Shown: positions 1 through 11,800 of the stretch, piece by piece
Layout: every line of letters starts with the position of its first letter
Numbering within the stretch: the first letter of the stretch is position 1
Origin: Capnocytophaga canimorsus
GTDB lineage: Bacteria; Bacteroidota; Bacteroidia; Flavobacteriales; Flavobacteriaceae
DNA: 64,000 nt
Direction: 5' to 3'
Assembly: GCF_002302565.1 (NCBI RefSeq)
Contig: NZ_CP022382.1
Location: 1,621,001-1,685,000 of the forward strand
Translations under genes and position numbers: made by a program
The notes under the pieces: model-generated
Seen by the model: only the letters and a program-made list of their open reading frames with translations
The model's database searches: none
What the model was told of the DNA's origin: nothing

Positions 1-664
1 TAGTTTGAATATCCATCACTGTAATTTTACCCTTGAAAGCACAACCCGTATCAACATTCCAAACACCAAAAGCATTCATAGGCTCGGTACTTCCAAAACG
101 CGTAGTGGGGGTATGACCAATGAAAATTTCAGAATAAAGTTTAAGACGTGCTGGATAATATGGGTCATTTTTTTCAATTTCCTTAGGAAGAGACAAGGCT
201 AATTCCCAAAGGGTTCTGTCCCAATAAAACATCTCTGGAAAATACTCAAAAACAACTCCTCTTAAATTGGTAAATCCGGCGTGAACAAAAAGCCTATTTT
301 GAGGATCTAAATGATAGGTTTCCAAGGATTCCAAAAAAGAAATATGTACTTCTTTTTCAGTATCAGAAACTTCAGCATAAGCTTTTTCTGTGGCATCTCC
401 TCCGTGAAAATACCATAAATCACTCATCGGTTTTCCTTTCAAAAATTGCAAACAAAGTGCATCGTGATTTCCTTTGATGAACAAACACTTATTGGTAGAT
501 TTCAAATTTATCAAAAAACGAATCACTTCGGGGGTTTGACTCCAACCATCGGCATAATCCCCTAAAAAAATAAGAAAATCATCTTTTTGAATTTTTGCTC
601 TTTCTAATACCTGAACAAGTGCTTTGTAAGCACCGTGAATATCTCCTATAACAAGGGTTCTCAT
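1..664 (-). CDS. Metallophosphoesterase (Ser/Thr phosphatase / diadenosine tetraphosphatase type), C-terminus cut by window edge
   Basis: Reading leftward from an ATG at 664, the frame is open to the window edge, giving at least 221 residues. The N-terminus carries the calcineurin-like metal-binding series: GDIHG (residues 7-11), GDYADG (about 41-46), and GNHD (about 70-73), followed by later histidines in VHAG and GHTP. This order is the PPP-type phosphoesterase signature, so the protein should bind two metal ions and hydrolyse phosphate esters in the cytoplasm. Bacteroidota paralogues are usually named serine/threonine phosphatase or symmetrical Ap4A hydrolase; the sequence alone does not separate these. 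The start directly abuts the stop of the upstream AlbA_2-type gene (TAA at 665-667), suggesting co-transcription. The C-terminus lies outside the window. Confidence 0.85.
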   Translation of the reverse strand, partial: MRTLVIGDIHGAYKALVQVLERAKIQKDDFLIFLGDYADGWSQTPEVIRFLINLKSTNKCLFIKGNHDALCLQFLKGKPMSDLWYFHGGDATEKAYAEVSDTEKEVHISFLESLETYHLDPQNRLFVHAGFTNLRGVVFEYFPEMFYWDRTLWELALSLPKEIEKNDPYYPARLKLYSEIFIGHTPTTRFGSTEPMNAFGVWNVDTGCAFKGKITVMDIQT

Positions 665-1804
665 TTATGAATTGTATTTTATTTTTCTTAATATTCGAAG
701 AGATTCTTTAAGCGAAATATAAGCCTCAACATCTATAGTTTTAAGTAGTGGACGTATGTTTTCCATACGTTGTTTTGCCTCCCCTACCCCATTTAAATAA
801 CAAAGTAAAGCTACAAATGGTAAACTTTTAAGTTGCTCTTTTTCTTTTTCACTTAAAGTCATTTCATTTTCTATTTTATCAAAAAGTATTGAACTGACTT
901 GCCAGACGCCTTCAATGACGGAAGATTCAAAAACAGGTGGCTGAAAAATTAGTTTTTGTTCTATTTTGTAACTTCCGTTATTAAAAAAATAAATATCAGT
1001 GGTTTCCAACGGATAATACTTTTGATTTGCGTTTATACCCAGTTGTATATATTCAACAATACTAAAACTATTTTCAGTATAACTGATTTCAACTTCATCT
1101 AAGGCCGAAAAAAACAAACGAACTTGCTCATTGATCAGTTCAATATCCACACGTGTGTAATAGGTTTTATCTTTGGAAATTTTAGATTTTCCTGCCCAAC
1201 ACAAAATAAATTGCTCTTCATAGACCAAATAATTTGCTTGTAAATCTTTATGTCTATGATAGATAAAATCAATAACTCCGTCAAGGCTATGTTTGATATT
1301 ATTTTTTGATTTTTTTTCTATCTCAGCAACAATGGTTGCATTAGTTAAATTAGGCTTTGATTTTTCTTTTTTGGGTTTACTATTACTTCCTTCACGATAA
1401 AAAATCATACCCGCAGGATACTTCCAAATACCTTTATGCAAAGAACATATTTTACCAGAAGACAATACCGTTACCAAACCCACTACCTTATTTTCAGGAA
1501 GCTCAGGAAAAATAATATTTTCATAAGCGATATTGGGCGCATTATCTAAAAACGCATTTACTAAATTTTGTATGCGACTATCATCAAAAAAATCAACTCC
1601 TACAATTTTTCGTGAATCATCTTCAACTCCTATCACAATAAAAGCTGAATTTTTAGGATTGGAATTTGCCAATGCACAAACAAGCTTTAAAAATTTAGCT
1701 TTTCCTTCCGTTGAAGATAAGTCAATAAAACGTTTACGGTCATAAAAACTATTTTCGTCACTATGCCCCAACAAATTTTTTATCAGTAAACGTTTATTTA
1801 TCAT
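665..1804 (-). CDS. AlbA_2 (Schlafen-type) putative DNA/ATP-binding domain protein
   Basis: A 379-residue protein. Residues about 15-140 match the AlbA_2 pattern: an early E/K-rich strand, an ALANS helix, and a FIVIGVEDD strand followed by VGVDFFDD. These domains occur in predicted transcriptional regulators, helicase-like proteins and Schlafen relatives, and bind nucleic acid. The remaining 240 residues are not recognised. There is no signal peptide, so it is probably cytoplasmic. A TATTTTTG promoter motif lies 25 bp upstream of the ATG (1829-1836, minus strand), supporting this start. The stop touches the phosphatase start, so the two probably form an operon. The specific role is unknown. 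Confidence 0.65.
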   Translation of the reverse strand: MINKRLLIKNLLGHSDENSFYDRKRFIDLSSTEGKAKFLKLVCALANSNPKNSAFIVIGVEDDSRKIVGVDFFDDSRIQNLVNAFLDNAPNIAYENIIFPELPENKVVGLVTVLSSGKICSLHKGIWKYPAGMIFYREGSNSKPKKEKSKPNLTNATIVAEIEKKSKNNIKHSLDGVIDFIYHRHKDLQANYLVYEEQFILCWAGKSKISKDKTYYTRVDIELINEQVRLFFSALDEVEISYTENSFSIVEYIQLGINANQKYYPLETTDIYFFNNGSYKIEQKLIFQPPVFESSVIEGVWQVSSILFDKIENEMTLSEKEKEQLKSLPFVALLCYLNGVGEAKQRMENIRPLLKTIDVEAYISLKESLRILRKIKYNS

Positions 1805-1828
1805 AACACATATTTGACATTACGCCTC

Positions 1829-1836
1829 CAAAAATA
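1829..1836 (-). promoter_or_regulatory. Promoter -7 element TATTTTTG
   Basis: Matches the Bacteroidota -7 consensus TAnnTTTG on the minus strand, 25 bp upstream of the AlbA_2-type gene start. Confidence 0.55.
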
Positions 1837-1899
1837 ATCAATTTTATCGAACTAAAAAGTAAAAGCTTTTTAAAAACATTTCATTAAAATATATTTCCA

Positions 1900-1907
1900 T
1901 ACTTTTG
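1900..1907 (+). promoter_or_regulatory. Promoter -7 element TACTTTTG
   Basis: TAnnTTTG motif 26 bp upstream of the methyltransferase (ogt-like) start at 1934. Confidence 0.55.
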
Positions 1908-1933
1908 TAAAAACTAAAACCTGGTATAAACCA

Positions 1934-2455
1934 ATGGAAAATAAACTTATCGCAAAATATATCCAAACTCCTTTAGGTGAAATGATGGGCATTTTCACCC
2001 AAAACGGATTATGCTTTTTAGAATATACGGATAAGAAAACATTTCAAAAAGACATTACTTCATTAAATAAAGAAATTGTTTTTACTGAAAATCCATTAAC
2101 TATACTTTTAGAAACAGAAATCAGAAATTATTTCGATGGCAATCTAAAACAATTTTCGATTCCTTTAGACCTTACAGGAACCCCTTTTCAGCAGAAAGTA
2201 TGGAGGATACTACAACAAATTCCGTACGGAAAAACCATTAGTTACAAAAAACAAGCCCAAAAATACGGAGATAATAAAGCAATACGTGCCATTGCTTCGG
2301 CTAACGGAAAGAATAAAATTTCGATTATCATTCCTTGCCATCGCGTTATTGGCAGTGACGGAAACTTGATAGGCTACGCCGGAGGAATTTGGCGAAAGAA
2401 AAAATTACTCGAATTAGAACAAAATACAATAAACTATCAAACCAAACTATTTTAA
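1934..2455 (+). CDS. ogt: Methylated-DNA--[protein]-cysteine S-methyltransferase
   Basis: A 173-residue DNA repair protein that transfers the alkyl group from O6-alkylguanine (or O4-alkylthymine) to its own cysteine in a single-use reaction. The active-site motif PCHRVIG is present with the acceptor at Cys135, followed by the GYAGG loop. The helix-turn-helix region (about 84-125), with GTPFQQKVW and IPYGKTISY, is typical of the family. Length is normal for the Ogt/MGMT family. It appears to be a single gene with its own TAnnTTTG promoter. The family assignment is secure; ogt versus the ada C-terminal domain type rests on the lack of an Ada N-terminal domain. Confidence 0.93.
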   Translation: MENKLIAKYIQTPLGEMMGIFTQNGLCFLEYTDKKTFQKDITSLNKEIVFTENPLTILLETEIRNYFDGNLKQFSIPLDLTGTPFQQKVWRILQQIPYGKTISYKKQAQKYGDNKAIRAIASANGKNKISIIIPCHRVIGSDGNLIGYAGGIWRKKKLLELEQNTINYQTKLF

Positions 2456-2467
2456 ATTTTCATTTAA

Positions 2468-2483
2468 GGTTCCACGTGAAACA
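2468..2483. promoter_or_regulatory. parS: parS site 1 (ParB/Spo0J binding), one mismatch
   Basis: GGTTCCACGTGAAACA matches the bacterial parS consensus TGTTNCACGTGAAACA except for the first base. It is one of three sites within 312 bp of an intergenic region. Confidence 0.8.
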
Positions 2484-2545
2484 TTTTAAAGAAGATTTTA
2501 AAACAACAATATAAAAATCATTTTTATATGAATCGAAGTATAATT

Positions 2546-2561
2546 TGTTCCACGTGGAACA
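2546..2561. promoter_or_regulatory. parS: parS site 2, perfect palindrome
   Basis: TGTTCCACGTGGAACA is a perfect 16-bp palindrome. It differs from the parS consensus by one base (G for A at position 12) and retains the invariant CACGTG core. Confidence 0.8.
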
Positions 2562-2660
2562 TAAAAAACAATAAAACAAGTTTAATTCAACTTTATTTAA
2601 TATTTAAAAAATATTTTTACAATAAAAATAATATAATCATAACAATGTTCGGTCGTATTA

Positions 2661-2750
2661 TAAAAAGTATGATAACGGTTTTGGTTACCGGGATTCGACT
2701 ACGCTCAACCTAACAAGAATACCCTATTTTTAAAGATATCATACTTTTTA
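2661..2750. repeat. Inverted-repeat element between parS sites 2 and 3
   Basis: Two perfect 14-bp arms (TAAAAAGTATGATA at 2661-2674 and its complement at 2737-2750) enclose 62 bp. The core contains ATTCGACTACGCTCAACC, a word resembling short REP/MITE-like elements I associate with flavobacterial intergenic DNA. No credible coding sequence is present; the region reads as non-coding, possibly a mobile miniature element or an RNA hairpin. Confidence 0.55.
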
Positions 2751-2763
2751 CATTACCTCCCAA

Positions 2764-2779
2764 TGTTCCACGTGAAACA
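2764..2779. promoter_or_regulatory. parS: parS site 3, exact consensus
   Basis: TGTTCCACGTGAAACA is an exact match to the parS consensus TGTTNCACGTGAAACA. It sits 40 bp upstream of the methyltransferase gene. Confidence 0.88.
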
Positions 2780-2819
2780 TTAGTAAAATAATAACTAAAA
2801 TATTAAAAATCTGATATTT

Positions 2820-3659
2820 ATGCATAAAATAATGGTTAAAGATTACAGTATTAGTCAAGAAATTTTTGAACTCATTTATCAGCCCGAACTTGATTTATAT
2901 CAAACCACCTCCCTACCCCAAAACTTAAGTAAATACTACGAAAGTGATGTATATATTTCACACACCGATAGTAAAAAAACGCTGTTCGATAAGGTTTATC
3001 AAGCGGTAAAAAACATCAATTTAAAAAGTAAAATACATATCATTTCTAAGTACAAAAAGCAAAAAATTCAATTACTAGATATCGGTGCAGGAACTGGTGA
3101 TTTCGTTTTGAGTTGCAAAAAACAAATGCATTGGGAAGCCACAGGTATTGAACCTAATGAAAAAGCAAGACAATTAGCCAAAAAAAAACAAATCCGTTTG
3201 CTTGAGAATTACGATGATTTAAAAGAAAAATCATTTGACGTAATTACCCTCTGGCACGTACTGGAACACATTCCCGACTTAGAAAACGAAATTCAAAAAA
3301 TAAATTCACTCTTAAAAGAAGACGGAATCTTGATTGTAGCCGTGCCCAATTACAAATCGTGGGACGCCCAGCATTATAAACAATTTTGGGCAGCGTATGA
3401 TGTTCCTCGTCATTTATGGCATTTTTCAAAAACAAGCATACAGAAAATTTTTACCTCAAAAGGATTTCAACTTTTAGAAATCAAACCGATGCTTTTCGAC
3501 GCTTTTTACGTATCGATACTTTCCGAACAATATAAAACTGGAAAAAAGAATTTCATCAAAGGATTTGTAAACGGAATGCGTTCAAACCTCTATGGAATGC
3601 GAAAAAAAGAGTTTTCATCACATATTTACGTCCTTCAAAAAGTGAAAAATTATTTTTAA
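2820..3659 (+). CDS. Class I SAM-dependent methyltransferase
   Basis: A 279-residue protein with the Rossmann motif I LLDIGAGTGDF at about residues 85-95, an acidic strand (TGIEPNEKA), and the DVITLWHVLEHIPD motif typical of Methyltransf_11/23 enzymes. The C-terminal third has the PRHLWHFSKTS and LLEIKPMLFDAFYVS segments seen in flavobacterial homologues. It should transfer a methyl group from S-adenosylmethionine; the substrate is unknown. An alternative start at Met5 (2832) is equally plausible. No TAnnTTTG box was seen; the parS site lies just upstream. Soluble and probably cytoplasmic. Confidence 0.85.
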   Translation: MHKIMVKDYSISQEIFELIYQPELDLYQTTSLPQNLSKYYESDVYISHTDSKKTLFDKVYQAVKNINLKSKIHIISKYKKQKIQLLDIGAGTGDFVLSCKKQMHWEATGIEPNEKARQLAKKKQIRLLENYDDLKEKSFDVITLWHVLEHIPDLENEIQKINSLLKEDGILIVAVPNYKSWDAQHYKQFWAAYDVPRHLWHFSKTSIQKIFTSKGFQLLEIKPMLFDAFYVSILSEQYKTGKKNFIKGFVNGMRSNLYGMRKKEFSSHIYVLQKVKNYF

Positions 3660-3863
3660 GTCTATTTTTTTGATTATCTCGAGTAGAAATATAACTTTAT
3701 ACGGAAAATTTTTAAAAATCAAAATTTAAGCCATTTCTGAAGGTCGATTTTTATAGATAAAATTTATATTTTTAAAAATATCATAGAAAAAATCCATAAA
3801 ATAGTATTTGTAAAAGAAAAATGAATTTCACTATGATAATTTCATTTCGTGTAAAAACTTTTC

Positions 3864-3871
3864 TATTTTTG
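3864..3871 (+). promoter_or_regulatory. Promoter -7 element TATTTTTG
   Basis: TAnnTTTG motif 30 bp upstream of the OmpH-like lipoprotein start. The preceding 3660-3860 stretch is AT-rich with no gene seen. Confidence 0.55.
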
Positions 3872-3901
3872 TAATCGAATCAATATTTAAGAAATTTAGA
3901 A

Positions 3902-4408
3902 ATGAAAAAAATTTTAATCGGAGGAATTGCCATCTTTACTTTGACGGCTTGTCAGGAAAAAATTGCCTACATTGACAATACCAAACTACTAAACGAATAT
4001 CAAGAGAAAAAAGACATTGAAGAAAAACTAAAAGAAAAAATCAGTGCTTACGAGAAAAAAAGAGATAGTATTTCAAAAGCATTTCAAAGTGAAGCACAAG
4101 CCTTCGATGCACAATCCAGAAATCTGGCTCAAAACGTAGCACAAAAAAAGTATAATGAACTTATTCAAAAAAGTCAAATGCTACAACAACATTTGATGCA
4201 AGAAGAAGAAAGCATTAAAATGGAAAGCCAAACCCAAATGGATAGTTTAGTAAACAAGGTAAAAAAGTTTGTAAAAAATTACGGAAAAGAGAAAAAATAT
4301 ACTTTTATACTTGGTGCTAACGATGGAGGAAGTGTACTTTACGGCGATGAAAAGAAAGACATCACCGCTGAAGTTATCAAAGCTATGAACGAATCTTACA
4401 AAAAATAA
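3902..4408 (+). CDS. OmpH/Skp-family periplasmic chaperone-like lipoprotein
   Basis: A 168-residue protein with a lipoprotein signal (LTAC, modified Cys17), followed by IAYIDNTKLLNEYQEK, the start of the Skp/OmpH fold. A long Lys/Glu/Gln-rich coiled coil covers about 35-115, and a conserved ending has YTFILGANDGGSVLYGDEKKDIT. Family members hold unfolded outer-membrane proteins in the periplasm; this copy would be membrane tethered. It is monocistronic: its own promoter lies upstream, and a strong hairpin with a T-run follows 10 bp after the stop. The family is clear; chaperone activity is inferred. Confidence 0.85.
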   Translation: MKKILIGGIAIFTLTACQEKIAYIDNTKLLNEYQEKKDIEEKLKEKISAYEKKRDSISKAFQSEAQAFDAQSRNLAQNVAQKKYNELIQKSQMLQQHLMQEEESIKMESQTQMDSLVNKVKKFVKNYGKEKKYTFILGANDGGSVLYGDEKKDITAEVIKAMNESYKK

Positions 4409-4417
4409 CAAATTCAT

Positions 4418-4449
4418 AAAAAAAGCAGTTTTTAAAAACTGCTTTTTTT
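4418..4449. terminator. Bidirectional Rho-independent terminator
   Basis: A hairpin with arms AAAAAGCAGTTTTT / AAAAACTGCTTTTT sits between the convergent OmpH-like and LysE genes, with T/A runs on both sides. Confidence 0.85.
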
Positions 4450-4458
4450 ATACCTATT

Positions 4459-5169
4459 TTAATTGAAAATTTCAAATTTATTCAATTGTTCACCAATAGT
4501 TTCCTTACTTTCTGGGAAAATTCCTTGAAGAAATAGCAACACTCCGAAAACCAACAAAACAATACTTATAATGCGTTTTATTTTATGAATATGGAAAGCA
4601 GTCAGCTTATTTTTAAGTTGTTTAGCTAAAAACATCTTCAAACAATCTACCAAAAAATAGCTAAGAATAATCGCAGAAAAGAAAACAGATATGCGATAAG
4701 TATCCATATCCAACCTTGGAGCAAAAACAATAATAATTCCTAACCAAAAACCTAAAACCCCGATATTTATAAAATTAAGTAAAAATCCTTTTACAAATGT
4801 GGAAAAGTAATTCTTCTTTACTTGAAGACAAATCTCGCTACCTTGTTCCTTGATTTTTCGTTGCTTATTAAAATCCTTTTTCTCTTTAATAAAGGAAAAC
4901 AAGCCATAAAAAATCATTATAATACCTCCAAACATAAACAAACGTGGATCGTCCTTTATCTTTTCTAATAAATTACTGGTAGTAAAATAAGCAATCAAAA
5001 TAAAGAGAATATCGGCTAGAATAACTCCAAAATCAAAAACCATTGCCATACGAAAACCCTTAGTAATAGCCGTTTCCAATAAAACAAAGAAAACCGGACC
5101 AATGGTAAAAGCTAATATTAAACCCAAAGGCAAAGCAACTAATATATCGTGTAACATAGTTATAATCAA
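4459..5169 (-). CDS. LysE-family amino-acid exporter
   Basis: A 236-residue inner-membrane protein with about six hydrophobic segments. The N-terminus LGLILAFTIGPVFFVLLETAI is the LysE/RhtB first-helix signature (GP motif), followed by the hydrophilic loop at about 95-118. Members export basic or neutral amino acids by proton antiport; the substrate here is unknown. A TATTTTTG promoter ends only 20 bp upstream of the first ATG, so the second ATG (Met5, at 5157) may be the true start. Monocistronic, converging on the OmpH-like gene across a shared terminator. Confidence 0.85.
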   Translation of the reverse strand: MIITMLHDILVALPLGLILAFTIGPVFFVLLETAITKGFRMAMVFDFGVILADILFILIAYFTTSNLLEKIKDDPRLFMFGGIIMIFYGLFSFIKEKKDFNKQRKIKEQGSEICLQVKKNYFSTFVKGFLLNFINIGVLGFWLGIIIVFAPRLDMDTYRISVFFSAIILSYFLVDCLKMFLAKQLKNKLTAFHIHKIKRIISIVLLVFGVLLFLQGIFPESKETIGEQLNKFEIFN

Positions 5170-5188
5170 TGAAATAAAAGTGAGCTAA

Positions 5189-5196
5189 CAAAAATA
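5189..5196 (-). promoter_or_regulatory. Promoter -7 element TATTTTTG
   Basis: Minus-strand TAnnTTTG motif upstream of the LysE-family gene. Confidence 0.55.
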
Positions 5197-5268
5197 AAGA
5201 AAAATCAAAAAAAATCAAAAAAATAAGGAAGAAGTTTTTGACCTCTCCCCTACTTCATTACAATTATT

Positions 5269-5463
5269 TTACTTTATTTGAACGCTTTTTATATCTATGC
5301 AAAATATAAAAAAAATTAAATTTGCTACTAAATATGCCATTAAAACATAGATATTCCCAACCAATTGGTCTGGAAAAATAAGCCATATCAAGAAAGTAAC
5401 CAAACAGAATATTAAAAAAAACAATCCAAATTTCTTTTTTATCAACTGATTTTTTGTCTCCAT
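5269..5463 (-). CDS. Small two-helix membrane protein, unknown function
   Basis: A 64-residue protein with a basic N-terminus (METKNQLIKKK) and two hydrophobic stretches, about residues 12-29 and 36-56, so an inner-membrane hairpin is likely. I do not recognise a family. Support for a real gene comes from a TATATTTG promoter motif 33 bp upstream (5496-5503) and the hydrophobic pattern. It lies between the LysE exporter and ribonuclease R, all on the minus strand. Confidence 0.6.
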   Translation of the reverse strand: METKNQLIKKKFGLFFLIFCLVTFLIWLIFPDQLVGNIYVLMAYLVANLIFFIFCIDIKSVQIK

Positions 5464-5495
5464 AGCAGAAATAGTTTAGTTATAGCTATCAAAAA

Positions 5496-5503
5496 CAAAT
5501 ATA
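5496..5503 (-). promoter_or_regulatory. Promoter -7 element TATATTTG
   Basis: Minus-strand TAnnTTTG motif 33 bp upstream of the small membrane protein gene. Confidence 0.5.
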
Positions 5504-5608
5504 TAAAAAAGTCAAAATAACAAAATTTTTAAATTATCTTTTAATACAAGAATTCATTTGCAATAATATTTTATATATCCCTTAAAATAATTTTATTAAT
5601 CAATTTTT

Positions 5609-7831
5609 CTAATTTGTTCCCATCAACTCAAAATCTAGTTGTTTTTTGAGTAAGTCCGTATTTTTTACGCGAACAACTACTTCATCACCAAGCTGATACA
5701 TATTTTTAGTTACCTCTCCTACCAAAGCGTATTGCTTCTCATCGAAAATATAATAATCGTCTTTGATATCTCGAGCTCTGACCAAACCTTCACACTTGTT
5801 TTCCACAATTTCAACATAAATACCCCATTCGGTAACTCCTGAAATGACTCCTTTAAAATGCTGATTTTTATGATTTTCCATAAATTTCACTTGCATATAT
5901 TTGATAGAATCACGCTCGGCAGACGAAGCCAAATTTTCCATCTGTGAAGAATGTTTGCATTTCGTTTCATAAACTTCCTGTTTTTCAGAAGGTTGATTAT
6001 CCAAATATTTCTGCAATAGCCGATGTACCATCACATCAGGATAACGACGAATAGGCGAAGTAAAATGCGTATAAAAATCAAATGCCAAGCCATAATGACC
6101 AATATTTTCCGTTGAATATGAGGCTTTTGCCATAGAACGAATAGCAAGTGTATCCACCAAATTCTGTTCTTTTTTGCCTTTTACTTCTTCCAAAAGAGAA
6201 TTCAACGAATGTGTAATACTCTTTCTGTCCTTCATATTGATGCCATAACCGAAACGAGAAATCACACCATTGAGCTGCATCAATTTTTCGTCATCAGGCT
6301 CATCGTGAATACGATACACAAAAGTTTTCTTCTGCTTGGCTATGAATTCAGCTACTTTTCGGTTTGCCAAAAGCATAAATTCTTCAATGAGTTTGTTGGC
6401 ATCTTTGCTTTCTTTGAAATATACGTGCGTTGGATTATCGTTTTCATCTAAATGGAATTTTACTTCAATTTTGTCAAAAGAAATCGCTCCTAATCGCATT
6501 CGTTTGGTACGCAGTTTTTTAGCCAAATCGTCCATAAGTAAAATGGCTTGAACTACATCTTTTGGAACAGAATAACTTCCTTCTTTACGAATTGAAATTT
6601 CAGAAGGCATTTGAAAATCAGATAGTTCTACTTTTTCTTGCTTCTCTCCTACTCCTGCAAAATTTTCAATGATTTCTTGAGCTTCCTCATACGCAAAACG
6701 ATGGTCGGAAAGCGTTACGGTTCGTCCGAACCACGTATTTAGGATTTCTGCCTTTTTATTCATCTCAAAAACCGCTGAAAATGTGTACTTTTCTTCATTC
6801 GGACGCAACGAACACGCAAAATTAGAAAGCACTTCGGGGAGCATCGGCACTACCCTATCCACCAAATACACGGAAGTGGCTCGATTGTAGGCTTCTTCAT
6901 CTAAAATAGTTCCTTCTTGGACATAATGCGACACGTCGGCAATGTGTACGCCAATTTCGTAATTTCCGTTTTCCAAAATTTGGAACGAAAGCGCATCGTC
7001 GAAATCTTTGGCATCTTTCGGATCAATAGTGAAAGTCAGCACGTTACGCATATCACGGCGTTTGGCAATTTCCTCAGCGGTGATGGAGGTGTCCAATTGT
7101 TTTGCAAAGGCTTCCACTTCGTGCGGAAACTCGTAAGGCAAACCATATTCTGCCAAAATGGAATGCATTTCAGTGGATTGTTCACCGGGTTTTCCAAGAA
7201 TTTGCTCAATCACTCCGAAAGGCGAATTGGATTTTCCTTCCCATTTTTCGATACGAACGATGACTTTATCGCCGTTTTCAGCTCCGTTAATGTCATTTTT
7301 CGATACGAAAATATCGGTGTACATTCGGTGGTCGGTTGGCAAGACGAAAGCAAAATTTTTCTGCATTTGCACCACGCCCACAAAGCGCATTTTTTTACGC
7401 TCGATAATTTTTGTAACCTCGCCTTCTAATTTATTTCCTTTTCGGAATCGAGGAAAAATATAAACTTCCACCAAATCCCCGTGAAGAGCTTTGTTGAGCA
7501 TATTGGAAGGAACAAACACATCTGTTTCTAACTCATCTACAATAACATAGGCATTTCCTCGAGAGGTAATATCTACCGTTCCTGTATAGTAATTCTGACT
7601 TGGAATGGCTTTGTATTTTCCGCGTTCAACTTCAAGGATTTTCTTTTTTTCTTTGAGTTGTACCAATCTTTTTATGAGTAGATTACGTCCGGAGGCATCG
7701 GTAATGTTCAATTTTGCAGCAATTTGTTTGTAGTTAAAACTCTCATTCTGATTGGTTTCCAATACAGAAAAGATGCCTTTGGTAAGGTCGTGTTTTTTAG
7801 CTTTAGCTGTTTTCTTAGATTTTTTTGCCAT
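5609..7831 (-). CDS. rnr: Ribonuclease R
   Basis: A 740-residue 3'-5' exoribonuclease that degrades structured RNA, rRNA fragments and mRNA. Domain order: a Lys-rich start and winged-helix domain (about 14-75), cold-shock/OB domains (about 80-200), and the RNB catalytic domain (about 255-580) with the metal-binding series DPKDAKDFDDALS (about 270-282). Downstream are the conserved HFTSPIRRYPD segment and a C-terminal S1 RNA-binding domain (about 645-735). Length and order match bacterial RNase R rather than the shorter RNase II. It is read divergently from the SusC gene across a large AT-rich gap. Several long antisense frames over this gene are shadows. Confidence 0.95.
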   Translation of the reverse strand: MAKKSKKTAKAKKHDLTKGIFSVLETNQNESFNYKQIAAKLNITDASGRNLLIKRLVQLKEKKKILEVERGKYKAIPSQNYYTGTVDITSRGNAYVIVDELETDVFVPSNMLNKALHGDLVEVYIFPRFRKGNKLEGEVTKIIERKKMRFVGVVQMQKNFAFVLPTDHRMYTDIFVSKNDINGAENGDKVIVRIEKWEGKSNSPFGVIEQILGKPGEQSTEMHSILAEYGLPYEFPHEVEAFAKQLDTSITAEEIAKRRDMRNVLTFTIDPKDAKDFDDALSFQILENGNYEIGVHIADVSHYVQEGTILDEEAYNRATSVYLVDRVVPMLPEVLSNFACSLRPNEEKYTFSAVFEMNKKAEILNTWFGRTVTLSDHRFAYEEAQEIIENFAGVGEKQEKVELSDFQMPSEISIRKEGSYSVPKDVVQAILLMDDLAKKLRTKRMRLGAISFDKIEVKFHLDENDNPTHVYFKESKDANKLIEEFMLLANRKVAEFIAKQKKTFVYRIHDEPDDEKLMQLNGVISRFGYGINMKDRKSITHSLNSLLEEVKGKKEQNLVDTLAIRSMAKASYSTENIGHYGLAFDFYTHFTSPIRRYPDVMVHRLLQKYLDNQPSEKQEVYETKCKHSSQMENLASSAERDSIKYMQVKFMENHKNQHFKGVISGVTEWGIYVEIVENKCEGLVRARDIKDDYYIFDEKQYALVGEVTKNMYQLGDEVVVRVKNTDLLKKQLDFELMGTN

Positions 7832-8813
7832 ATATTTTTTGCTTTATTATTTAAAGAGCGTACAATGTACAATAAATAAGTTAAAAACAAATTTTTGTAC
7901 ACATATATTTTTAAAAAAACGTTTTTAAAATTTTTCCACAATTGAATTTATAATAAAAATAGAATTTAAAAATTTAAAAATAAAATGATGATTATTATAG
8001 GCTGTTAATTGTATAGAAAAAATGAAATTAAAAAATTTGGAAATATTGTTATTCACAATTTATCAACAGTTTTAAACATTCTTTATAGCTTTAATATATT
8101 AGAAATCAGTTATTATATAAATGTTATTAGTAATGTTAATAAATGATTTTTCTTTCTATTTGAAGATAACTTTCAAAAATAGGATTGTTAATAACTGTTC
8201 AAAAAATCAGTGATATTTTTATAAAAATAAATTTGTTTTGTAAGTAGTAAGCCTTGTATGTACAAATTTTTTACAGTGACAAATAATCTATCGAAATTTT
8301 ACATCGTAAATTATTAACTTTTCCAGAAAAAAAATAAACATTTTAATATCAGAATCTTATAAAAAATAGCTAACAATATTGTTGATAACTCTAAGCAGTG
8401 ACTAATAAGTTAGTACATGTATCTTTATTGAATACTTAGATAGATAAAAAATTTATATTCAATCATAAATTCATAAAATAAAGTTTGTAAAATTATCTAA
8501 TTATAGTTGCATTCTGCTTTCGAAAAATGAATATAAAAATATAGAATTGTTCATTTTTTCAGCCCATTTATTAATGAATACAAAATTTAACACATGAAAT
8601 AATATTTCAATGAATTTATTTATTATTTTTTAAAAAATAATTTTTATGTATAAATTTATTATTATTATTCAATTTTTTAACTCAATTGTTTTTTAAATAT
8701 AATGAATAACTGAAATGTTTTTTTGATAAAAAGTTTATTTAAAACAGAAGGTATTTGTTTTTTCAAAAAAAATGATAAATATTTGCCTCGAGACTAATTC
8801 AAAAAGAATAACT
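7832..8813. other. Large AT-rich divergent intergenic region, candidate replication origin (oriC)
   Basis: About 980 bp with no convincing gene, very AT-rich, between divergent rnr and SusC genes. It contains DnaA-box-like words: TTATTCACA (8049-8057), TTATCAACA (8060-8068; also 8380-8388 on the minus strand), and two weaker TTATTAACA words on the minus strand (8134-8142, 8186-8194). With three parS sites 5.5 kb away and mostly rightward genes beyond, it is a plausible oriC. However, TTATCAACA also occurs elsewhere in this AT-rich window (for example 31119-31127), so the assignment is tentative. It also holds the promoters of both flanking genes, not resolved here. Confidence 0.3.
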
Positions 8814-11800
8814 ATGAGATTAAAATTAACTTGGATGGTAATGTTGTTCTTTACAGCATTGCAACTGTCCTTTGCACAAGAAAAAACGGTGAAAGGTACA
8901 GTAAAGGATGCCTCTGGTGTAGAATTACCAGGAGTAGCTGTTCAAATTAAAGGAGAGCAGCGAGGCACAGAAACAGATTTTGACGGGAATTACTCACTAC
9001 AAGTAGCTCCAGGAAAAATTCTGGTTTTCTCTTATTTAGGAATGAAAAATGTAGAGAAAACCGTAGGGAATTCCAATACCATAAACGTGGTAATGGAGGA
9101 GGATACTCATCAATTGGGAGAAGTTGTGGTTACTGGAGCTATGGGGATATCTCGTAGTGAAAAATCTTTGGGTTACGCGGTTTCCAAAATTGGTGGAGAA
9201 GATATTGTAAAAACCAAAGATCCTAACTTGGTTAATAGTTTAGCTGGAAAGGCTGCGGGTATCAATATTACTCAACAATCAGGAAGTGTAGGAGGTTCTT
9301 CTAAAATCGTAATACGTGGGGCATCTTCATTAAGTGGAGATAACCAACCTTTGTTTGTAGTTGATGGTATGCCTATTAACAATACTTATTTGTCTAATGG
9401 TATTCAAGGGGCTGTTGATTATGGAAATGCTGCTGCCGATATTAACTCTTTAGATGTGGAATCAATGGATATACTTAAAGGTGCTGCTGCAACCGCTTTG
9501 TATGGAGCTCGTGCCAAAAATGGTGCTATCATTATTACAACTAAAAGAGGAAAACAAGGAAAAATGAATTTGGTGTACAACACAAGTATCCGTATGGATA
9601 GAGTTGCTAAACTACCAGATTACCAAAATGAATATTCACAAGGTCTTGACGGAAGATATTCAGTGACTAGCTTTAATGGTTGGGGAGAAAAAATAAATGG
9701 TCAAACTGTGAAAAACTTTTTAGGTCAAGATGTAACTTTACAAGCATATCCTGATAATGTGAAAAACTTTTTTAATACAGGAACTACCCAAATACATAGT
9801 TTTGATTTAAATGGAGGTGATGAAAAAAGTGATTATCGATTTGGATATACTTTAACCTTACAAAATGGTGTTATGCCATTCAGTTCTTACAAGAAAAACG
9901 ATTTAACCTTCAATGTAGGGCGCAAATTAAATCAGTGGTTAGATAGCCGTATCACAGGTACTTATACACGTGGTTTAAGAAATGGTCTTTCTGCACAAGG
10001 CTCTAATGATCCGAATGTTATTATTGGAAGCATTTTGGGTATGCCAAGAACTACAGATATTGATTTTCTAAGAAAAAATGTATACAATGAACAAGGAAAA
10101 CCTAATTCTTGGGATGGTGCTGGAAAAACAAATATTCCTTATTATGTGCTAGAAAACAATAAAATAGGAAGTGACAATGAAAGATTTTTAGGATCCGTTT
10201 CTTTTCAAGCAAAACCATTGAGTTGGCTTACAATTAAAAACCAATCAGGAATTGATACAAGTATTGAAGAACGAAATACTTTATGGTCAGTAGGAACTAT
10301 TGGTGAGATAAAAGGTAAATTTTCTGATCAGGTTTATAGAACCCGTATATTGAATAATGACTTGATTGCTATGGGAAATTTCAAGTTAGGAAATAAATTT
10401 GGTTTAAATACTATCCTGGGATATAATGTGTTCCAAAGAGAATATTCTCGAAAAGGAAATACAGCTTCTGAATTGATTGTTCCTGATTTGTTGACGTATG
10501 CCAATGCGAAAGCAAATGTTCCTACAAATTATTACTCTATAAAAAGAATTCATGGGGTATATGGTGAGATTAGTGCAGATTATGACGATACATTTTTCTT
10601 GACTTTAACAGGGCGTAATGACTGGTCAAGTACTTTACCAGTAGAGCATAATAGTTATTTTTATCCGTCAGTGAGTTTTAGTTATGTATTTACTAAAAAC
10701 CTGCATTTAAATTGGTTGAATTTTGGTAAAGTTCGTCTGAATTGGGCAAACGTTGGTAGTGATGAAGATCCTTATTTGCTAGAGTATGAGTATGCAGCTC
10801 AATCTACTTGGTTCTCTCAATATGGAGCAGGAGGGGAATTTCCTCATAAAGGAGTTAGTGCATTTTCAATTCCAAGAACACTACCTAACAAAAATCTTAA
10901 ACCTCAAAATCAAGTAAGTTACGAAGCAGGTTTAGACTTGAGATTATTTAATAACCGAGTAAATATTGATGCCACAGTATATCGTATTGATACTGATGAT
11001 CAAATCATATCTATTGATGTACCTCTATCTACTGGGTTCTTTGCTAAAAAAATTAACGCAGGGAAAGTTCGTAACGAAGGATTTGAGATTCAATTGGGAA
11101 TAATTCCTATAAAAACACAAGATTTTGAATGGAATACGACTTTCAATTTCAGCCAAAACAAAAATACGATAATTGAATTGGATGGTAATCTTAAAGAGTA
11201 TAGTGTAACGAGTGGTTGGTCTGGTTTACAAATCAAAGCTGCACCAGGAGAACCTTTAAGTATTTTTGGAACTGCTTGGAAACGTAATGATAATGGAGAA
11301 ATTATTATAAATGAAAAAACAGGTTTAAGAGAAGTGGAAACAGGAAAGAATTTAGGTAATATAGATCCTGATTTCCGTTTGGGTATTAATAATTCATTCC
11401 GTATCAAAGATTTCACTTTATCTGCTGTAATTGATTGGAAACAAGGAGGTAAAATGTTTTCAGGAACAGCCGCTTCACTCCGATCAACTGGTTTGGTTCA
11501 AGAAACATTAGCACATAGAGGAGAAACATTTGTCGATACAGGAGTAAATCCAGTTGCTGGCGGTGGATACAAACCTAATGCAACCCCTGTGAAAAATATG
11601 CAAACTTACTGGGGGCATATCAGCAGTACAAGTAATACAGAAGGAAATGTTTATGATGCTTCGTATATGAAACTAAGAGAGGTGAGTTTAGTATGGAACA
11701 TGCCTAAAAAATACCTTCCCGAGAATTCCTTTATTAAAGGAGTTATGGTTGGAATAGAAGGACGTAACTTATGGAATATTATAGATAATGTACCTCACGT

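Follow-up and report, generated by a model that had tools for sequence, protein, structure and literature searches.

A parS cluster as a landmark for a probable replication origin far from dnaA in Capnocytophaga canimorsus

Does a group of short inverted repeats in a non-coding gap of the Capnocytophaga canimorsus chromosome act as a parS centromere, and does it show where replication of that chromosome begins? The stretch of DNA that raises this question, referred to here as the window, comprises 64 kb (genome positions 1621001-1685000) of a genome that consists of a single contig of 2,414,275 bp; positions are those of the window unless given as genome positions. We hold with strong confidence that the three sites within it are genuine chromosomal parS sites, to which ParB would be expected to bind, lying about 5 kb from the replication origin.

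All three sites fall within a 364-bp non-coding gap (2456-2819) that runs from the stop of the ogt gene bordering it on the left (2455) to the start of a methyltransferase gene (2820). They were defined by pattern scan and shuffles. Site 1, GGTTCCACGTGAAACA, occupies 2468-2483 on the forward strand and differs from TGTTNCACGTGAAACA by one mismatch, as does site 2 (2546-2561), which is the perfect palindrome TGTTCCACGTGGAACA and has no strand; site 3, TGTTCCACGTGAAACA (2764-2779, forward strand), matches TGTTNCACGTGAAACA exactly. Their positions and mismatches, and the location in a non-coding gap, are as claimed by a previous sequence-only reading of the window, which also judged a triple cluster unlikely to arise by chance. 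The shuffles bear this out: TGTTNCACGTGAAACA at no more than one mismatch identifies the three sites and finds none in 100 dinucleotide shuffles of the window, while the palindrome TGTTCCACGTGGAACA at up to two mismatches recovers the same three sites only, and again nothing in 100 shuffles. At three mismatches TGTTNCACGTGAAACA is no longer discriminating, with seven strand matches in the window against 2.82 expected.

The sites share the 16-bp inverted repeat of chromosomal parS, and they also share its confinement to one part of the chromosome. The same reading had held that sites scattered around the genome would count against it, and none are scattered: at two mismatches or fewer the whole genome contains only four places, all inside genome positions 1619318-1623779, an interval of 4.5 kb. 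The fourth place is a weaker site, TTTTCCACGTGGAACA, at genome position 1619318 (window -1682), 1.7 kb left of the window. A reversed control pattern gives one match per strand across the whole genome at the same threshold.

The position of this cluster coincides with a switch in GC skew, in agreement with its proposed use as a landmark for the origin side of the genome. Skew was sampled in 25 stretches totaling 544 kb, which also served for nonamer scans. It is negative in 11 of 12 stretches to the left of the cluster and positive in 10 of 12 to the right, a count that omits one stretch at the cluster itself, also negative, and a two-arm fit to the sampled values places the best origin at the parS cluster. 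Over 124 kb of contiguous DNA the cumulative skew reaches its minimum at 7560. One switch in the sampled skew falls at about 1.62 Mb and the return switch between 0.36 and 0.48 Mb, on the far side of the chromosome from the cluster, which is consistent with a terminus there. In this genome the sites therefore lie at the skew-defined origin, as chromosomal parS sites do, and in the relative G019 the skew is also clear, with nine of ten stretches as expected on each side.

The proteins that would act on such sites are encoded in the same genome. A single ParB_N protein is present, with ParB_N, HTH_ParB and ParB_C domains (N-terminal, helix-turn-helix and dimerisation), and the parA gene adjoins parB, the pair lying 613 kb from the parS sites. 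The closest solved structures are ParB/Spo0J chains at up to 180 bits, with Noc chains close behind at 160 bits. Because Noc chains score nearly as high, the score alone leaves the choice between ParB and Noc unsettled; the adjacent parA and the sequence of the parS sites settle it in favor of ParB. The genome thus holds both the ParA and the cognate ParB that belong with chromosomal parS.

How far the arrangement is conserved was examined at two levels. Within the genus, 20 Capnocytophaga genomes were scanned, 19 of which contain matches to the palindrome at two mismatches or fewer, and the loci of 18 relatives were fetched (G017, which has no site and is 89% complete, was left out). In all 18 loci parS stands beside the same methyltransferase gene, although its position varies, being before the gene, after it or on both sides. 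For the wider family, genomes of named species were scanned blind to parS with an alignment of the methyltransferase built from 18 of 19 sequences (that of L063 was excluded, as its reference ran through a stop), and the best 80 of at least 592 relatives were kept. Nearly all of these 80 loci are titled Flavobacteriaceae and one is itself Capnocytophaga (C. felis, L155, the same locus as L053). Sites at no more than one mismatch occur in the flanks, here and below of 10 kb, of 75 of the 80, and the reversed control in none. Exact TGTTYCACGTGRAACA is found in 109 of 119 family genomes, with 0/119 for its reversed control.

Lying between ogt and the methyltransferase gene, the palindromes could instead be operators through which a local transcription factor controls one or other of these genes, without any centromere function. 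This is very unlikely. The sites switch sides of the methyltransferase gene from species to species, and outside the genus most of them lie about 2-3 kb upstream of it: only 84 of the 269 parS sites in the named loci are within 1.5 kb of the gene, and many loci have a second group at that greater distance. All six of the open reading frames (ORFs) tested from the interval between the two groups are mnmG (gidA; GIDA family). Furthermore, the sequence is that of known parS, ParB is encoded in the genome and the skew switches at the sites, all of which argue for centromere-like parS rather than operators.

Some variation in the sites themselves is seen across the family. The five named loci in which no parS was found at one mismatch or fewer are all from Tenacibaculum (L192, L202, L209, L211 and L225), and each has kept the methyltransferase gene and rnr. 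In two further Tenacibaculum loci, L215 and L222, the sites are altered, for example to TGTTCCACATGGAACA, which points to drift of parS in this genus. Flavobacterium sp. MC2016-06 (L184, about 6730-7100) has eleven parS-like sites, and among them four TGTTCCACATGGAACA sites follow one another at intervals of 116-118 bp, resembling a tandem array.

In many bacteria dnaA marks oriC, and the record of this genome starts at dnaA, with the DnaA domain at bases 265-750. Replication might on these grounds begin at base 1 of the record, leaving the parS cluster displaced from the origin, but the data make this even less probable than operator function. The dnaA locus is 791 kb from the cluster, the skew to its left and to its right is positive and the cumulative skew climbs overall through it with no switch, and its flanks contain no cluster of DnaA-box-like nonamers; the switches in the sampled skew are at about 1.62 and 0.4 Mb. 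It is the parS cluster that very probably marks the true start of replication, and the dnaA gene, where numbering of the record begins, lies far away. Partition sites are also common on plasmids, yet it is scarcely credible that a plasmid or an integrative element brought these sites in and is all that they partition, given ordinary chromosomal neighbor genes, an arrangement kept across genus and family (including 75 of 80 loci picked by a chromosomal gene) and a single ParB_N protein whose relatives are of chromosomal type.

If the cluster marks the origin region, the start site itself can be sought nearby. The rnr gene, coding for RNase R (5609-7831, reverse strand), adjoins a 940-bp gap at 7832-8771 with 17% GC, flanked on its other side by a SusC-like gene, and the skew minimum at 7560 is 272 bp leftward of this gap. 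Within it are five TTATNMACA nonamers, at 8049, 8060, 8134, 8186 and 8380 (spanning 8049-8388), compared with a mean of 0.49 in shuffles of the gap, only 1 of 5000 of which reached five. No 600-bp cluster elsewhere in the sampled 544 kb is as dense, and the next independent one contains two. Among the relatives, 17 of 19 could be tested (G014 and G017 are missing), and in 16 of these the 800 bp upstream of rnr are enriched in TTATNMACA, no more than 24 of 1000 shuffles reaching the observed count in each case. An oriC is expected to be an AT-rich gap that lies at the skew minimum and carries clustered DnaA boxes, and the gap at 7832-8771 conforms. Adjacency to dnaA, which is common for oriC and not universal, is absent, dnaA being 0.79 Mb away. 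Replication most likely starts in this AT-rich gap upstream of rnr, as the nonamers and the skew would suggest. Exact TTATCCACA was rejected as an origin marker: its 35 genomic occurrences (15 on one strand and 20 on the other, against 10 and 20 for the reversed control) include none in the window, the boxes in the gap being TTATNMACA-like. Repeats resembling TTATTATTA, which are DnaA-trio-like, were also spotted by eye upstream of rnr.

Several observations weigh against the parS cluster as origin landmark and against the gap upstream of rnr as oriC. In the genus scan at two mismatches there are eight stray places off the clusters (one each in G002, G006 and G013, two in G005 and three in G004), and the reversed control has matches in 7 of the 20 genomes. 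The skew picture is clear in only two of the five chromosomes sampled (the present one, G000, and G019): it is weak in G007 (6/10 stretches right, 7/10 left), where the best-fitting origin misses the cluster by 0.08-0.13 of a chromosome, and in G009 (6/9 right, 7/11 left), and it is not supportive in G013, with 7/10 on the right and only 4/10 left stretches negative. Opposite the cluster, no dif-like site was found with a pattern modelled on E. coli dif. With regard to the candidate oriC, the TTATNMACA pattern was picked after inspection of what lies upstream of rnr in the related genomes, and the pre-set TTATNCACA with one mismatch peaks in the gap less sharply (seven per 600 bp, with five elsewhere in the 124 kb). 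In G006 the stretch upstream of rnr contains no TTATNMACA at all, whereas G007 has four there and seven in another gap, which is located at about 968 kb and is separated from its parS by 0.63 Mb. Finally, rnr is near the methyltransferase gene in only 9 of the 80 named loci, the one Capnocytophaga locus included, and a LysE-type neighbor in two; the link to rnr is accordingly mainly a feature of the genus, within the flanks covered.

Two of these points have further detail. The G007 cluster (contig C1, about 968 kb; L094:8331-8620) holds seven DnaA-box-like nonamers in 600 bp, and its flanking genes appear by eye to encode a sigma-54-type regulator-like and a ketoacyl synthase-like protein. 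It may be another region resembling an origin, or else a cluster with a regulatory role. For dif, the only candidate, at 1.31 Mb, is a single three-mismatch match to the E. coli-based pattern and is not opposite the cluster, so it was discarded; no Bacteroidetes dif sequence is printed in the accessible portions of PMC3025954 or PMC3091885.

A parS site can also be one at which ParB loads the condensin SMC-ScpAB, and this partner was sought across the genus. ScpA is found in none of the 20 genomes (control genomes match in 9 of 14), nor is the SMC hinge (controls 10 of 14, with the Caulobacter control missed, so that divergent forms may escape); the search covered ScpA and the SMC hinge, with MukBEF and MksBEF outside it. 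As neither was found, the parS sites probably act via ParA and ParB alone, and ParB in this genus probably works without loading SMC-ScpAB. The negatives agree with the accessible part of PMC10197239, which reports two Bacteroidetes without known condensins.

Taken with what is established for ParABS and DnaA, these data suggest a sequence of events. ParB is described in the available sections of PMC7022226 as loading at parS and spreading, with ParA then moving it so that newly copied origins separate. In C. canimorsus, DnaA would open the AT-rich gap at 7832-8771 and the parS sites would be copied soon afterwards; ParB, encoded with ParA 0.61 Mb away, would load on them and spread along the DNA, and ParA would move the newly copied origin regions apart.

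The distance between these sites and the genes for the proteins that serve them recurs in related genomes. From dnaA to parS it is 0.24-0.50 of a chromosome in all 12 countable genomes, and from parB to parS 0.25-0.48 in 5 of 5, bearing in mind that related genomes are not independent. The 12 consist of 9 of 23 single-contig family genomes, with four left out as lacking exact parS and ten as having matches beyond those listed, to which G007, G019 and G013 (the last in two contigs) were added; multi-contig family genomes were not counted, and the sizes of seven genomes are rounded. It is tempting, if rather doubtful, to propose that the cis-acting sites stay together as one stable block (parS with the methyltransferase gene family-wide, oriC with rnr in Capnocytophaga) while dnaA and parAB remain terminus-proximal, giving a condensin-independent ParABS system in which replication reaches the genes for initiation and partition late. 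If true, such late copying could tie the dosage of these genes to the progress of replication.

The genes to the right of the parS gap complete the conserved neighborhood. The class I SAM methyltransferase gene (2820-3659, forward strand) is followed by an OmpH-like gene (3902-4408, forward), present in 15 of 18 genus loci and 68 of 80 named loci, and by the LysE-type transporter gene (4459-5169, reverse), present in 15 of 18 genus loci. The neighbor rnr is likewise found in 15 of 18, rising to 17 after extension, the last locus being a 5-kb contig. Between parS sites 2 and 3 there is an imperfect inverted repeat of 27 nt with a 62-nt spacer (2648-2763), of which no second copy was found across the 544 kb sampled. 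An Rfam search of window positions 1-10000 returned nothing reaching the gathering score.

Origins distant from dnaA, and parS clusters that mark them, have already been published for Bacteroidetes, and the mechanism is known. The accessible text of PMC4755523 states that oriC is commonly distant from dnaA in Bacteroidetes, and that of PMC10197239 uses parS clusters together with skew to place the origin in each of 12 gut bacteria, including two Bacteroidetes, and cautions against the use of dnaA. The parS landmark described here is therefore real but largely expected. To this are added the location of centromere and origin in Capnocytophaga, a block of genes that is conserved with them and one particular candidate for oriC; a literature search, with most subscription papers outside it, found no paper on a Capnocytophaga origin or parS. 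In practical terms it offers a usable origin landmark for genomes of this genus. Several records, among them those of G000 and G019 in the genus, begin at dnaA, and taking base 1 as the origin would misplace analyses of growth rate, gene dosage and replichores by up to half a chromosome. The genus also represents a lineage where ParB-parS might be studied without SMC-ScpAB.

In comparison with known systems, the C. canimorsus sites resemble chromosomal ParABS clusters in having a 16-bp inverted repeat in several copies at the skew-defined origin, with ParA and ParB encoded, and they differ in the 0.61 Mb that separates parAB from the sites and in the lack of ScpA and SMC hinge matches in the 20 genus genomes. 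The E. coli oriC adjoins gidA, and a likeness to such mnmG/gidA-linked origins is evident in the named Flavobacteriaceae loci, where the six ORFs tested between two parS groups are all mnmG; in contrast, MnmG is not among the seven proteins of the window that were tested, the rest of the genome, including the ORFs left of the window, lying outside that search. In the oriC of Prevotella intermedia, parS receives no mention in the accessible part of PMC4755523, whereas the candidate described here is tied to a parS cluster and, within the genus, to rnr; the known origin and the candidate nevertheless both coincide with a switch in skew and hold several DnaA boxes or box-like nonamers, with dnaA elsewhere on the chromosome.
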